This document shows positions 15,911 to 20,010 of a stretch of 64,000 nt of DNA, in pieces. The stretch is from positions 124,001-188,000 of the forward strand of contig NZ_BSTS01000011.1 in the NCBI RefSeq assembly GCF_030269665.1, read 5' to 3'. A program made the translations under genes and the position numbers. The stretch is from Actinomycetospora sp. NBRC 106375 (lineage in GTDB: Bacteria; Actinomycetota; Actinomycetes; Mycobacteriales; Pseudonocardiaceae). The notes under the pieces were generated by a model. That model made no database searches. It saw only the letters and a program-made list of their open reading frames with translations, and had not been told where the DNA came from. How positions within the stretch are numbered: the stretch's first letter is position 1; every line of letters begins with the position of its first letter.

Positions 15911-16399
15911 ATGTCGTTGGGCGGCGGATACATGCTCTCGTCCCGGGAGGGCCGGCAGATCCCGGCGATCGGGCTGAACATCACGGCGAAGGCCACGGGC
16001 GAGAACACGAAGGACGCCTACTCGCTGTTCGAGTACGCCATCCCCGGCGGGGTCAGCGGCCCGCCGCCGCACGTGCACACCCGCGAGGACGAGTCGTTCA
16101 TCTGCCTCGCCGGGAAGCTCGACGTGATGCTCGGCGGCGAGGACGTCACCATCGGCCACGGCGACTACCTGCTGCTGCCCCGCGACGTCGTGCACACCTT
16201 CCGCAACCCGTACGACGACGAGGCGCGCGTGATCTCGGTGGTCTCGCCGGCCGGGCTCGAGGCGTACTACCAGGCGCTCGCCGACCTGCCGCCCGGGCCG
16301 AAGGACATCTCGGTCATGAAGGCGATCATGGCGGACTTCGGCATCGAGCTGCGTCTGCCCGAGGGCGCCGCGGCGCCGGGTGCGGGGACCCCGTCGTGA
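15911..16399 (+). CDS. Cupin-domain protein paired with a flavin monooxygenase
   Basis: 162 residues. Cupin motif 1 is PPPHVHTREDESFICLAGKL and motif 2 is LPRDVVHTFRN, giving His/His/Glu/His as a plausible metal site. The ATG follows GAGGAGG with a good spacing. It overlaps the monooxygenase by GTGA, so they form one translation-coupled unit. Many proteins of this subclass resemble quercetinase-like or sugar-binding cupins; the reaction is unknown. Confidence 0.82.
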   Translation: MSLGGGYMLSSREGRQIPAIGLNITAKATGENTKDAYSLFEYAIPGGVSGPPPHVHTREDESFICLAGKLDVMLGGEDVTIGHGDYLLLPRDVVHTFRNPYDDEARVISVVSPAGLEAYYQALADLPPGPKDISVMKAIMADFGIELRLPEGAAAPGAGTPS

Positions 16400-17937
16400 G
16401 GGTCGGGATCATCGGGGCCGGCGTCGCCGGGCTCGTCACCGCGAAGGTGCTCACCCAGGTCGGGCACGACGTCGTCGTCTACGACCGCACGCCCGACGTC
16501 GGCGGCGTCTGGAGCGCGACGCGGCGCTACCCGGGCCTGTCGACGCAGAGCCCGCGCGACACCTACGTGTTCTCCGACTTCCCCATGCCCGCCGACCACC
16601 CCGAGTGGCCCTCGGGCGAGCAGGTCCAGGCCTACCTCGCGGCGTACGCCGAGCACACCGGCGTCGACCGGCTGCTGCGCCTGGAGACCGAGGTGACCGC
16701 CGCCGTCCCCGGCGACACCGGCTGGGTGCTGACGACCTCCGGCGCGCACGCGGGCACCGACGCGGTCGACCACCTCGTGGTCGCCAACGGCGTGTTCTGC
16801 GCGCCGGCGATGCCGGAGCTGCCCGGTCTCGCGGAGTTCACCGCCGCCGGCGGCACGGTCATGCCGGCGACCGATCTGCACGACGCCGAGCGGACCCGCG
16901 GCAGGCACACCGTCGTCCTCGGCTACGGCAAGACCGCGTGCGACGTCGCCGTCGCCGTCTCCGGGACCGCCGCGTCGACGACGGTCGTCGCGCGCCAGCT
17001 GGTGTGGAAGGTGCCGCGCTGGGTGGGCGGGGTGCTCAACTTCAAGCACCTGCTGCTGACCCGTCTCGGCGAGTCGCTCTTCCGCTACCGCTACCTGCGC
17101 GGCGTCGAGACGTTCCTGCACGGACCGGCGAACCCGCTGCGCCGCCGGATGCTCGACTCCCTCGGCCCGGTCACGACGCGCCAGTTCGGGCTCGCGAAGC
17201 TCGACCTCGTGCCGCGCGGGCGCTTCGAGGACATCGTCCGCGGCGCCATCGGCCTGACCACCGACGGCTTCTACGAGGCCGTGGGGGCAGGGGACATCGC
17301 GGTCCGTCGCGACCGCACGATCACCCGCCTGCTCGAGAAGGACGGCGCCCCGCACGTCGAGCTCGACGACGGGAGCGTCCTGCCGGCCGACCTGCTGGTG
17401 TGCGCCACCGGCTTCCGCCAGGGCGTGCCCTTCCTGCCCGCCGACGTCGCCGGTCGCCTGGTCGACGAGCGCGGCAACTTCCTGCTCTACCGCCAGATCC
17501 TCCCGGTCGCCGTCGACGACCTCACGTTCGCCGGCTACAACTCCTCGTTCTTCAGCCCGCTCAACGCCGAGATGGCGGCGGTCTGGATCGCGTCGCTGCT
17601 CGCCGGGCGCCTCGACCTGCCCGACCGGGACGAGCTGCGCGGGGAGGTCGACGCCCAGCTGGCGTTCATGGACGCCGCCACCGACGGCCACCACTGCCGA
17701 GGCACCAAGATCATCCCGTTCTCGCTGCACAACGTCGACGAGGTGCTGGGCGACGTCGACCTCGACATCTCCCGCGGCGCGCGGTTCAAGCAGTGGCTGA
17801 ACCCCGTCGACCCCGCCGCCTACGCGGGCGTCACCCCCCGCCTGGTGGAGCGGCTCGAGACCGCCGGCCCGGACGTCGAGGTCGTCACACCCCGCGCTCC
17901 GGCCGAGGACGGCGACCGGACGGCGGAGCGGGCCTGA
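16396..17937 (+). CDS. Flavin-containing monooxygenase (FMO/Baeyer-Villiger-like)
   Basis: 513 residues. The FAD loop GIIGAGVAGLVTAKVL is at the N-terminus, a second dinucleotide loop VVLGYGKTACDVAV near 175, and LLVCATGFRQGVPFL is the conserved ATGF of the family. The W-rich segment GGVWSATRRYPGLSTQSPRD matches FMO-type N-oxidases and Baeyer-Villiger enzymes. It should insert one oxygen atom using NAD(P)H and O2. With the extradiol operon next door it may prepare or tailor the aromatic substrate. The substrate is unknown. Confidence 0.88.
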   Translation: MRVGIIGAGVAGLVTAKVLTQVGHDVVVYDRTPDVGGVWSATRRYPGLSTQSPRDTYVFSDFPMPADHPEWPSGEQVQAYLAAYAEHTGVDRLLRLETEVTAAVPGDTGWVLTTSGAHAGTDAVDHLVVANGVFCAPAMPELPGLAEFTAAGGTVMPATDLHDAERTRGRHTVVLGYGKTACDVAVAVSGTAASTTVVARQLVWKVPRWVGGVLNFKHLLLTRLGESLFRYRYLRGVETFLHGPANPLRRRMLDSLGPVTTRQFGLAKLDLVPRGRFEDIVRGAIGLTTDGFYEAVGAGDIAVRRDRTITRLLEKDGAPHVELDDGSVLPADLLVCATGFRQGVPFLPADVAGRLVDERGNFLLYRQILPVAVDDLTFAGYNSSFFSPLNAEMAAVWIASLLAGRLDLPDRDELRGEVDAQLAFMDAATDGHHCRGTKIIPFSLHNVDEVLGDVDLDISRGARFKQWLNPVDPAAYAGVTPRLVERLETAGPDVEVVTPRAPAEDGDRTAERA

Positions 17938-17958
17938 CCCGACTGCGATCGTCGTCCG

Positions 17959-17996
17959 GGTGACGATCCCGCGCAGATGTGAGTGGTTTCGTCACC
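17959..17996. repeat. Hairpin repeat, copy 1 (left of the DUF559 gene)
   Basis: GGTGACGA and TCGTCACC form an 8-bp stem around a 22-base loop whose first 17 bases (tcccgcgcagatgtgag) are identical to copy 2 at 18971-19012. Left arm plus shared loop make a 25-bp direct repeat bracketing one gene. It begins 21 bases after the monooxygenase stop. Confidence 0.8.
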
Positions 17997-18059
17997 GAGA
18001 CCGGGATCATCCGCGAAACCGGGTGGATCCCCGGGGGGAGCGGCTGCGTCGAACCCGGT

Positions 18060-18977
18060 GTGAGCACATCGTCCGACGCCGCCATCCGCCGACTCGCCCG
18101 CGCCCAGCACGGTGTCCTGAGCTTCGCCCAGGCCCGGGAGGCCGGGCTGAGCGAGGCCACCATCCGCCGCCGCCTGGCCACCCGCGCCTGGCTGCCCGCC
18201 GGCGTGCGCGTCGTCCAGGTCGCCGAGCACGAGCAGACCCCGGAGTCGAGGACGGTCGCGGCGATGCTGTCGGTCGGCGAGGGTGCGGTGCTGGTCGGGC
18301 GGTCGGCGGTGTGGTGGTGGGACCTGCACGAGCGGCCCCCGGCACTCGTGGAGATCGCGCTGGGGCGGGACCGGCAGGTCCGCCCGCGCGAGGGCGTCGA
18401 CCTGCACCGGCGTGATGTCGCCGCGGTCGACCGGTGCCGGCACCGCCGCCTGGCGGTCACCACGCGGGCGTGCTCGGTGCTCGACGCGGCGACCCGTCTC
18501 GGGCTCGCCGACGGCGCGCAGCTGGTGGACCGGGCGCTGCTGCGCCGCCGCGTGCGCCTCCCCGACCTCCGGGCGGTCCACTACCGCACCATCGGGCGGG
18601 TCGGGGCGCCGCTGGCGGCGAGGCTGCTCGCCCTGGCCGCGGGCGGGGCGCGCTCGGAGGCGGAGCGGCTCTCGCACCGCCTGATGCACGCCGGCGGGCT
18701 TCGCGGCTGGAGCGCGAACACCGAGATCCTGCTGCCCGGCTACGGCCGCGCGGTGGGCGACGTGGTGTTCGACGACCAGAAGGTGGTCCTGGAGGTCGAC
18801 GGGTGGGCCTACCACCGGGGGCAGCGGGCGTTCCTGCTCGACGGGCCGCGGCAGTCCGCGCTCGCGGCGGCGGGCTGGGTCGTGCTGCGCACCCACTGGC
18901 ACGAGCTGACCTGCGAGCCCGACACGTTCCTGGCCACGCTGCGCCGCACGCTGGCCGCGCGATCGCTGTCCCGGTGA
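18060..18977 (+). CDS. DUF559 nuclease-like protein with AbiEi-type winged-helix N-terminus
   Basis: 305 residues from GTG 18060. The N-terminus LARAQHGVLSFAQAREAGLSEATIRRRL resembles the AbiEi antitoxin-like winged helix; the C-terminus is a VSR/PD-(D/E)xK-like DUF559 domain with GDVVFDDQKVVLEVDGWAYH, whose Asp and Glu-x-Asp could bind metal. Such proteins are frequent in actinobacteria and have no settled function. A longer frame from 17979 would start inside the left hairpin and is disfavoured. Its stop codon TGA lies in the left arm of the right hairpin. No cognate toxin gene is adjacent. Confidence 0.78.
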   Translation: MSTSSDAAIRRLARAQHGVLSFAQAREAGLSEATIRRRLATRAWLPAGVRVVQVAEHEQTPESRTVAAMLSVGEGAVLVGRSAVWWWDLHERPPALVEIALGRDRQVRPREGVDLHRRDVAAVDRCRHRRLAVTTRACSVLDAATRLGLADGAQLVDRALLRRRVRLPDLRAVHYRTIGRVGAPLAARLLALAAGGARSEAERLSHRLMHAGGLRGWSANTEILLPGYGRAVGDVVFDDQKVVLEVDGWAYHRGQRAFLLDGPRQSALAAAGWVVLRTHWHELTCEPDTFLATLRRTLAARSLSR

Positions 18978-19012
18978 CGATCCCGCGCAGATGTGAGGGC
19001 GTTCGTCACCGG
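18971..19012. repeat. Hairpin repeat, copy 2 (right of the DUF559 gene)
   Basis: CCGGTGACGA and TCGTCACCGG form a perfect 10-bp stem around a 22-base loop. The left arm supplies the TGA stop of the DUF559 gene and the right arm, read on the other strand, supplies the TGA stop of the convergent membrane gene. It may act as a bidirectional terminator, a REP-like element, or both. Confidence 0.8.
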
Positions 19013-19953
19013 GATCCCGATCTCGCGAGCCACGCGGCCCGCAGCGTGGTGACCAGCGCGCCCAGATAGGCGGCGGCGCACCCGGCGAGCACGAGCAGGG
19101 CCGGGGCGCCGAGGGCGTCGAGCGGCAGCATCCGGAACGCGTGCGCGAGCAGGACCGCGAGGGTGAGGAGCACGGCGCCGGCCATGGTCGACGCGACCGC
19201 GACACGGTGCCGCAGCGCCGTCCCGGCGAGCAGGACGGCGGGGACGGCGAGCAGCAGCAGGCCGTGGACGCCGATCGCGTGGGGCAGCACGAGGTCCCCG
19301 CCGGCGGTGGCCGGGCGGAAGCCGGCGAGGTCGGGGCCGACGGTCGCGGTGTCGGGGCCGAAGTACGCGCCGCTGCGCCCGAACCCGCTGCCGATCCCGC
19401 CGCGGTAGACGCCGCTGTTGGTCGAGATCATGATCATGCCGACGGCGCACCCGGTGAGGAGGACGAGCACGCCCGCGGCGACGCCCACGCGCAGCTCGGG
19501 CCGCGTGTCGCGCGAGCGCAGCGTCGTCACCAGCAGCACGACCACGCCGGCCACGAACACCGCCGCGGTGCCGGCCGCGCCGCCGCGCATGAGGGCGGTG
19601 TCGAGCGGGGTCGTGAAGTTGTAGTGGCTGGGCACGCCGCGCCAGGCCTCGATCGCGATGATCGCCGTCTCCCCGACGGCGAAGGCGAGCACGGTGGCCC
19701 CGACGACGTGACGCTGCCAGGGACGCGTCCGCAGCCGCGGCAGGACCACGGCGACCGACCAGCACAGCAGCCAGCCGGTCTCGGCGAACGTGGCGGGCTT
19801 GCGCAGCGACACCGGCCCGCTGACCGGCCCGCCGAGCAGCACCAGGGCGACGACGTGCCCGACCATCGCGACGAGCAGCACGGCGCCCGCGAGCCAGAGG
19901 GCCCGCGGCCAGTCGAGGGTGCGCGCGGCGGGCCGGGCGTCCGCGATGGTCAC
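19006..19953 (-). CDS. Polytopic membrane protein of unknown function
   Basis: 315 residues with about eight hydrophobic segments, for example ALWLAGAVLLVAMVGHVVAL, TAAVFVAGVVVLLVTT and LTLAVLLAHAFRMLPLDAL. A luminal/extracellular-looking Gly-rich stretch GVYRGGIGSGFGRSGAYFGP and His residues in several helices are notable. GTG 19953 is preceded by GGAGGGGGAG. It is divergent from the MarR gene, 82 bases away, and is therefore the likely MarR target. No transporter family is recognised. Confidence 0.75.
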   Translation of the reverse strand: MTIADARPAARTLDWPRALWLAGAVLLVAMVGHVVALVLLGGPVSGPVSLRKPATFAETGWLLCWSVAVVLPRLRTRPWQRHVVGATVLAFAVGETAIIAIEAWRGVPSHYNFTTPLDTALMRGGAAGTAAVFVAGVVVLLVTTLRSRDTRPELRVGVAAGVLVLLTGCAVGMIMISTNSGVYRGGIGSGFGRSGAYFGPDTATVGPDLAGFRPATAGGDLVLPHAIGVHGLLLLAVPAVLLAGTALRHRVAVASTMAGAVLLTLAVLLAHAFRMLPLDALGAPALLVLAGCAAAYLGALVTTLRAAWLARSGSR

Positions 19954-19996
19954 GGCTCCCCCTCCGGTGGCGAATCGTTACACTTTGTCATGGTTG

Positions 19997-20010
19997 CCGT
20001 GGTGCCACGG
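19997..20010. promoter_or_regulatory. Inverted repeat between the MarR gene and its divergent neighbour
   Basis: CCGTGG-TG-CCACGG is a 14-base interrupted palindrome centred in the divergent gap, about 30 bases before the MarR start. MarR proteins usually bind such sites in the gap they share with their target. Binding is inferred from position only. Confidence 0.45.

Follow-up and report, generated by a model that had tools for sequence, protein, structure and literature searches.

The analyses presented here suggest that two near-identical hairpins flanking a DUF559 gene in an Actinomycetospora genome are the ends of a small mobile element, i.e. a system of the REP/RAYT type that operates with an unrelated nuclease. 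We give this reading a probability of about 0.63; the other transposases of the genome were not surveyed. The gene and its two palindromes appear to behave as one mobile unit, a view that rests on comparison among genomes and not on movement followed in real time, and the unit is apparently a selfish element of an undescribed kind, with a private palindrome for each subfamily. In the window (the whole stretch of 64,000 nucleotides that was analysed) the relevant features are:

16396-17937, upstream of the left palindrome: FMO-type oxidoreductase gene
17947-19022, plus strand: whole unit, palindrome-gene-palindrome, 1076 bp
17947-18008, no strand: left 62-bp palindrome (core 17959-17996), lying after the FMO-type oxidoreductase gene and before the DUF559 gene
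18060-18977, plus strand: gene for an AbiEi-type winged helix with a DUF559/MTES_1575 (Vsr-like) nuclease, 305 aa, GTG start (the start being our choice)
18961-19022, no strand: right 62-bp palindromic element (core 18973-19010)
19006-19953, minus strand: convergent open frame without a Pfam match

The initial annotation had described the same hairpin on either side of the DUF559 gene, together giving 25-bp direct repeats, and a pattern search confirms this, with 2 matches in the window at up to 3 mismatches and none in 100 shuffles. Both cores have the form GGTGACGA-N22-TCGTCACC and share an identical 25-bp stretch, and as RNA they fold far more stably than shuffled sequences (z of -4.0 and -5.4). 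The further description as a stem with a 22-base loop holds in that both hairpins exist, but it understates the element: when the flanks of the genome copies were compared, the hairpin proved to be the core of a longer, nested palindrome of 62 bp, whose two ends both read GATC in all host copies but one (10 of 11; the exception has GATT at its left end), and the 'loop' also shows an approximate dyad symmetry centred on CAGATSTG. The right palindrome holds two stop codons, namely the TGA of the DUF559 gene (18975-18977, plus strand) and the codon that closes the convergent open frame (19006-19008, minus strand). Co-variation between the arms was absent among the 11 host copies (pairing was equalled or bettered in 495 of 500 shuffles) and present across 27 copies from several species (62 double changes vs 43.9 in shuffles, with 0 of 500 as high). 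An RNA structure is thus unsupported by covariation in the host genome alone and supported across species, an RNA hairpin and a DNA dyad not being distinguished. Scanning of positions 17000-20000 against Rfam gave a single match (E 0.56), far under its cut-off.

The protein encoded between the palindromes models as an AbiEi-like part joined to a Vsr/I-Bth0305I-like nuclease domain, whose activity is inferred. In Pfam, DUF559 (3.5e-6) is above its cut-off, and MTES_1575 (5.5e-6) and AbiEi_4 (2.6e-4) are both under theirs, which several relatives pass; PADLOC gives an AbiEi match at 2e-18. Foldseek, run with an AlphaFold2 model built from 35 sequences (mean pLDDT 89.8; locus L243 is absent from the alignment used), has as its top PDB match the AbiEi antitoxin 6y8q (E 9e-5, the sole match under 0.001), and matches the C-terminal part to the homing endonuclease domain of I-Bth0305I (3r3p; TM 0.81 by target length, E 0.009) and to the DUF559 protein 3hrl (0.79, E 0.045), which a sequence profile search of the PDB also finds at 4e-6. 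In alignments of 22 and 35 proteins, E202, D234, D247 and H252 are invariant and E245 is nearly so; we assign E202, D234, E245-x-D247 and H252 as candidate catalytic residues. The AbiEi-DUF559 genes, of which the actinobacterial genomes looked at hold up to 6 close homologues each, are under purifying selection as judged from their sequences (dN/dS of 0.11-0.26 in 11 pairs). No transposase family occurs among the Pfam matches of the window protein and its relatives, and the protein is not a Y1 (HUH) tyrosine transposase, all the Pfam and fold matches being of AbiEi or DUF559/Vsr-like type. No AbiEii-like toxin/nucleotidyltransferase was found among the neighbours scanned (the FMO-type enzyme, the open frame without a Pfam match and a MarR regulator), and a phage search that used a mycobacterial family member, not the window protein, as the query gave no match.

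The hairpin recurs in the host and in its relatives. In the host genome (G000; 6.79 Mb, 104 contigs) 11 copies of the palindrome were found at up to 3 mismatches and none with the reversed pattern, and 2 of the 11 bracket the AbiEi-DUF559 gene of the window. A covariance model made from these copies recovers the same 11 at E 3e-11 or better, on both strands, with the next best match at 0.06; a broader model adds a 12th, weaker host match (G000:C3:253367, E 7e-5). The strict pattern occurs in 9 of 18 Actinomycetospora genomes (1-16 copies each) and is absent from the 43 genomes examined from elsewhere in the family and order. A model built on 27 copies gives matches at E 0.001 or better in 16 of the 18 genus genomes, at about 77 places in total, and at least some of the weakest of these are other palindrome types beside DUF559 genes. 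The computational checks proposed in the initial annotation came out largely in its favour, with recurrence beside other DUF559 genes taking a modified form: the four other close homologues in the host lack this hairpin, so that most copies stand alone and a single DUF559 gene of the host is flanked by it, yet all four have palindromes of their own on both sides.

Brackets of this kind extend to related genes well beyond the host. We compared the 250 bases before each gene with the 250 bases after it and called a locus bracketed at a score of 46 or more. The genus set (59 matches at E 1e-20 or better, representing 57 distinct loci) has 48 bracketed loci with scores up to 129; in random window pairs of similar spacing from the same loci (n=1449) the maximum was 52, 99% lay at or below 43 and about 0.35% reached 46. 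Among other actinobacteria (Mycobacterium, Mycolicibacterium, Rhodococcus etc.), 27 of the 40 loci that fell among the best 80 of 155 relatives are bracketed, the control maximum being 33 in 907 pairs. Palindromes accordingly cluster at the AbiEi-type DUF559 genes, 75 of the 97 loci tested being bracketed; these 97, like the 40, include L232 and L235 (neither bracketed), which were dropped from the later correlation set. That set used slightly longer flanks than the random-pair control, and the genus count is 48 either way. None of 151 non-DUF559 control genes, 0.6-1.5 kb long and from the same DNA (called with our own simple codon-bias script), is bracketed, and neither is any of nine DUF559 genes without an AbiEi part, i.e. 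E. coli ycjD and eight plasmid genes selected from 21 non-Tsukamurella records; absence of AbiEi was checked with Pfam for one of the nine, the other eight being 116-157 aa by annotation, too short for AbiEi. Comparison of sequences at this scale is what establishes the brackets and their link to AbiEi-DUF559 genes.

Palindrome strength alone was rejected as evidence: random windows of the same loci hold equally strong palindromes, and left-right similarity is the criterion that counts. Where the left flank of one locus was scored against the right flank of another, the median was 24, with 95% at 44 and 99% at 92, the last value being as high as it is because this control includes loci of one subfamily. 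The 22 of 97 loci that are unbracketed by the threshold, a few of them at contig ends or with a single palindrome, are spread over the tree and more clustered than expected by chance (11 changes vs 15.0 when shuffled; 89 rows, in which the frameshifted L110 is represented by a wrong-frame reading). Six mycobacterial AbiEi-DUF559 genes without detectable brackets (L225, L228, L233, L238, L240 and L241) are possibly immobile or domesticated. Broken reading frames are apparent in some bracketed DUF559 genes (L110, L088, L101 and L111), as expected of a decaying mobile element. A Tsukamurella plasmid carries a bracketed AbiEi-DUF559 gene (L254, NZ_LR134454.1:120441-124262; score 69) whose product is 29% identical to the window protein, and this unit is a possible route of spread. 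The short DUF559 genes L255 and L257, on Sulfuricystis and Azospira plasmids, are followed in the same order by one small gene and then a tyrosine recombinase gene.

The palindromes co-diversify with the protein, as far as the sequences compared can show. Palindrome sequence differs by subfamily (GGTGACGA..TCGTCACC, GAGTGCGGCG..CGCCGCACTC, ACTTGTGTGGCA..TGCCACACAAGT and GTCAGTGGCAC..GTGCCACTGAC, with GATTTCGGCGCG..CGCGCCGAAATC in mycobacteria), and many types share, by eye, a common frame of about 62 bp, in which the ends are often [A/T]GATC and the centre resembles CGCT-S-AGCG or TCAGA-TCTGA. Across 72 bracketed intact loci, a Mantel test of protein distance against palindrome similarity gave r = -0.617, none of 2000 permutations being as extreme (permutation minimum -0.101). 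Of 56 pairs whose flanks are homologous, 50 have brackets that match each other within a locus more closely than they match their counterparts; these pairs are not independent, and the segments were picked by within-locus match, which favours within-locus similarity. Paired change of the left and right palindromes fits with a protein that has to recognise both. No domain stood out as tracking palindrome type; the winged helix as the sole specificity part was not supported by the domain-wise comparison, and, the winged-helix part not being singled out, a simple recognition story is weakened. Pairs of bracketed genes within one genome have a common palindrome type in only 2 of 63 cases, which implies that the units multiply little.

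Evidence for mobility comes from units at unrelated loci and from sites whose occupancy differs between species. A homologous unit lies at an unrelated locus of A. succinea DSM 45775 (G011:C1:465850-466928, aligning to query positions 1552-2627, i.e. window 17947-19022), and the alignment stops exactly at the outer ends of both palindromes. Among 311 pairs of related units (protein identity >58%) without flank homology, both outer ends were reached within 20 bp in 32; in the other 279 the two palindrome edges were not both reached to within 20 bp by detectable homology, which in most ended inside the unit. Homology ran more than 20 bp past a palindrome in 2 of the 311, a rarity that is partly built in, the class having been defined by the absence of homology >80 bp beyond the palindromes.

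Comparison of orthologous loci, which the initial annotation had put forward as a check, uncovered sites with no palindrome, with one palindrome or with palindrome-gene-palindrome, so that empty and solo sites do exist. The orthologous site of the A. succinea unit could be read in eight other species (18 regions fetched, 8 with both flanks and 10 without one or both): G000, G009 and G017 each show one palindrome, of the same type, at the stop codon or adjoining it, G005 and G006 have other palindrome types at the same spot (G006 by pattern, G005 by eye), and G002, G008 and G012 (A. lutea TBRC 2215) have none. At the window's own locus, the unit is common to A. succinea and A. lutea, and G017 has the FMO and MarR genes with no palindrome between them. 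Near the downstream genes, G009 retains a remnant, in which roughly 13 bases from the start of a left palindrome are joined directly to the 3' part of the DUF559 gene, with a right palindrome also present. No target-site duplication was identified, the flanks of the species compared being too diverged beside the junction. Units at unrelated loci, and the occupied, solo and empty states of one site, are to this extent demonstrated by alignment. Two stretches have two palindrome families about 1.1 kb apart, near the spacing of a unit (G002:C52:193930/195027 and G017:C21:193255/194338); no DUF559 gene was detected in the former (L056).

Solo copies lie preferentially at gene ends. We sampled 34 copies of family a (the palindrome family of the window) from the approximately 77 places (9 in the host, 15 in A. 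succinea and 10 in seven others), their positions being judged with the same gene-calling script as the control genes: 22 are between convergent genes, 10 between tandem and none between divergent genes, with one falling within a predicted gene and another at an edge that is unclear, and 23 of 33 are within 30 nt of the 3' end of a gene. Gaps of at least 62 nt in the larger loci comprise 27 convergent, 70 tandem and 52 divergent ones. Some solo sites are common to species (G000 C4:152110 with G011 C2:272119; G000 C22 with G011 C9 and G017 C19); for others the loci fetched include no counterpart. The pattern of a second palindrome family, with up to 3 mismatches allowed, is matched in 8 of the 18 genus genomes and in none of the other ten: G004, G006 and G017, each carrying a bracketed gene that is near consensus, have 6-8 copies, G000, with divergent members of the subfamily, has 4, and four others have 1-2; several copies of this family are near family-a copies. 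Another dispersed repeat (GAGGATGTGGCGATCCTGGCGT..ACGCCAG..) occurs in some of the same convergent gaps (L147, i.e. G000:C12:238300-239700, L008, L151 and L154), two G000 loci being 94% identical over 70 bp, and was seen by eye in G000, G006 and G012.

As to mechanism, we propose that the protein, probably as a dimer, would recognise its own palindrome type, that the Vsr/EDxHD-like domain would cut or nick in or beside the palindrome, and that repair of the break may copy a single palindrome or the whole unit elsewhere, preferably beside a stop codon. Dimer formation, binding, cleavage, the copying route and the question of which component moves which are all inferred, and that the palindromes are 'mobilised or policed' by the nuclease, as initially suggested, likewise remains an inference without binding or cleavage data. 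The upstream palindrome may in addition double as an operator, in view of the binding of AbiEi proteins to inverted repeats (PMC7319586, in the part available to us).

A variant in which the solo palindrome is the target of homing, so that cutting and repair from a bracketed copy insert the gene and the solos spread by other means, is unlikely in our judgement, though it deserves consideration. The catalytic part does resemble that of the homing endonuclease I-Bth0305I (3r3p), and the A. succinea unit sits where G000, G009 and G017 have one palindrome; but such a solo could equally arise by recombination between two brackets, in the manner of a solo LTR, and both flanks of the unit carry whole palindromes, the presumed sites, so that the enzyme could cut its own unit. 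Arms of 62 bp are, moreover, short for gene conversion. A strictly regulatory role, with the palindromes as operators of the AbiEi-like part that are conserved for control of a regulon and are not mobile, would fit the upstream bracket, which in many loci is centred about 80-86 bases before the start, and the autoregulation of AbiEi antitoxins via inverted repeats (PMC7319586, with the same restriction). This we regard as distinctly improbable, given the presence of a bracket at the 3' end as well, the lack of any copy between divergent genes among the 34 solos, the units at unrelated loci and the different palindrome types that one intergenic site holds in different species.

That the palindromes are moved in trans by another transposase, with the DUF559 nuclease hitch-hiking or policing, receives some support from the persistence of copies where no matching gene was found (G017 and G004 carry 6 and 5 family-a palindromes and no detected family-a gene, G004 being 83% complete); we nevertheless think it very doubtful, because palindrome type follows DUF559 relatedness and no other gene was seen between brackets. 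Ordinary bidirectional terminators repeated by chance would account for the location at 3' ends and the strong folding, but hardly for the remainder: there is no terminator-like site with a T tract at 17800-19200, the genome has only 11 copies, the palindromes are absent from the same gene ends in some relatives and they are coupled to one gene family. The brackets alone make this reading insufficient, and we give it almost no credence, allowing that a terminator role may coexist with mobility.

The preferred reading, of palindromes as the ends of a mobile element, brings the unit close to REP/RAYT, as the initial annotation had noted from its layout. In the parts of PMC3733652 available to us, RAYT genes are described as bracketed by short palindromes of which single copies are dispersed near the 3' ends of genes, each RAYT gene being specific to its repeat where there is more than one type, and the repeats as a supply of stop codons; bracketed gene, 3'-end repeats, type-specific pairs and stop-codon supply all have their likeness here. 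The analogy does not extend to the enzyme, which is an AbiEi-DUF559 nuclease and not a Y1 tyrosine transposase, to the ends, which are whole 62-bp palindromes, with GATC-type termini in this family, in place of a 20-40 bp repeat with a GTAG tag, or to the copy number, which is low. CGTC-tagged REPs, apparently without a dedicated transposase (PMC3733652, same parts), also lie near gene 3' ends and differ in sequence and architecture; no DUF559 gene is encoded on the alphaproteobacterial plasmids considered (0 of 8), so that no link to CGTC repeats could be assessed there.

Other known systems share one feature each. The catalytic fold is that of the EDxHD homing endonucleases (I-Bth0305I), and the likeness to a homing endonuclease gene lies in this homing-type nuclease fold (3r3p); here, however, an AbiEi-like part is added, two whole palindromes flank the gene and there is no intron or intein. 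With AbiEi, the antitoxin of the AbiE type IV toxin-antitoxin system, the protein shares the N-terminal fold (6y8q), the PADLOC AbiEi models and weak similarity to Pfam AbiEi_4, but it has a nuclease domain fused to it and no AbiEii-like toxin among the neighbours examined. Insertion sequences and MITEs also place the same unit with defined ends at unrelated loci, whereas no transposase of a known class is found here among the Pfam matches. Caulobacter VsrA has a Vsr-like nuclease domain and was proposed as the mismatch repair partner of a methyltransferase in a paper that names DUF559 once, so far as its accessible portion goes (PMC12907096), and whose main text contains neither 'palindrom' nor 'hairpin'. 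Among open-access papers naming DUF559, those that also mention palindromes are not about such brackets, by title and start of abstract (subscription journals and preprints being outside the scope), and no comparable system was found among the best-ranked open-access literature matches.

We rate the element as new in kind because its enzyme, its ends and probably its chemistry are unlike those of every mobile element known to us (no catalogue having been searched); a more cautious classification within the REP kind could be made. Whether it represents a new class of autonomous mobile elements in Mycobacteriales and relatives, i.e. a unit of about 1.1 kb whose sole enzyme would be a Vsr/EDxHD-type nuclease on an AbiEi scaffold, with co-evolving palindromic ends that also spread solo, as a convergent counterpart of RAYT/REP, seems to us an evenly balanced question. 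If so, the enzyme still missing for other palindromic repeats, those without a known transposase, might be sought among Vsr/DUF559-type nucleases, and the protein described here would be a concrete candidate for the mover of such repeats where there is no RAYT; there would also be a large natural set of matched enzyme/DNA-site pairs in which to study how nucleases change their targets. AbiEi-DUF559 domains are currently named antitoxin, restriction-like or unknown, and the genes are frequent in the actinobacteria looked at; if their products are the enzymes that serve a palindrome-ended mobile element, this would supply a role for many genes whose function is unknown and an origin for the short palindromic repeats of these genomes.
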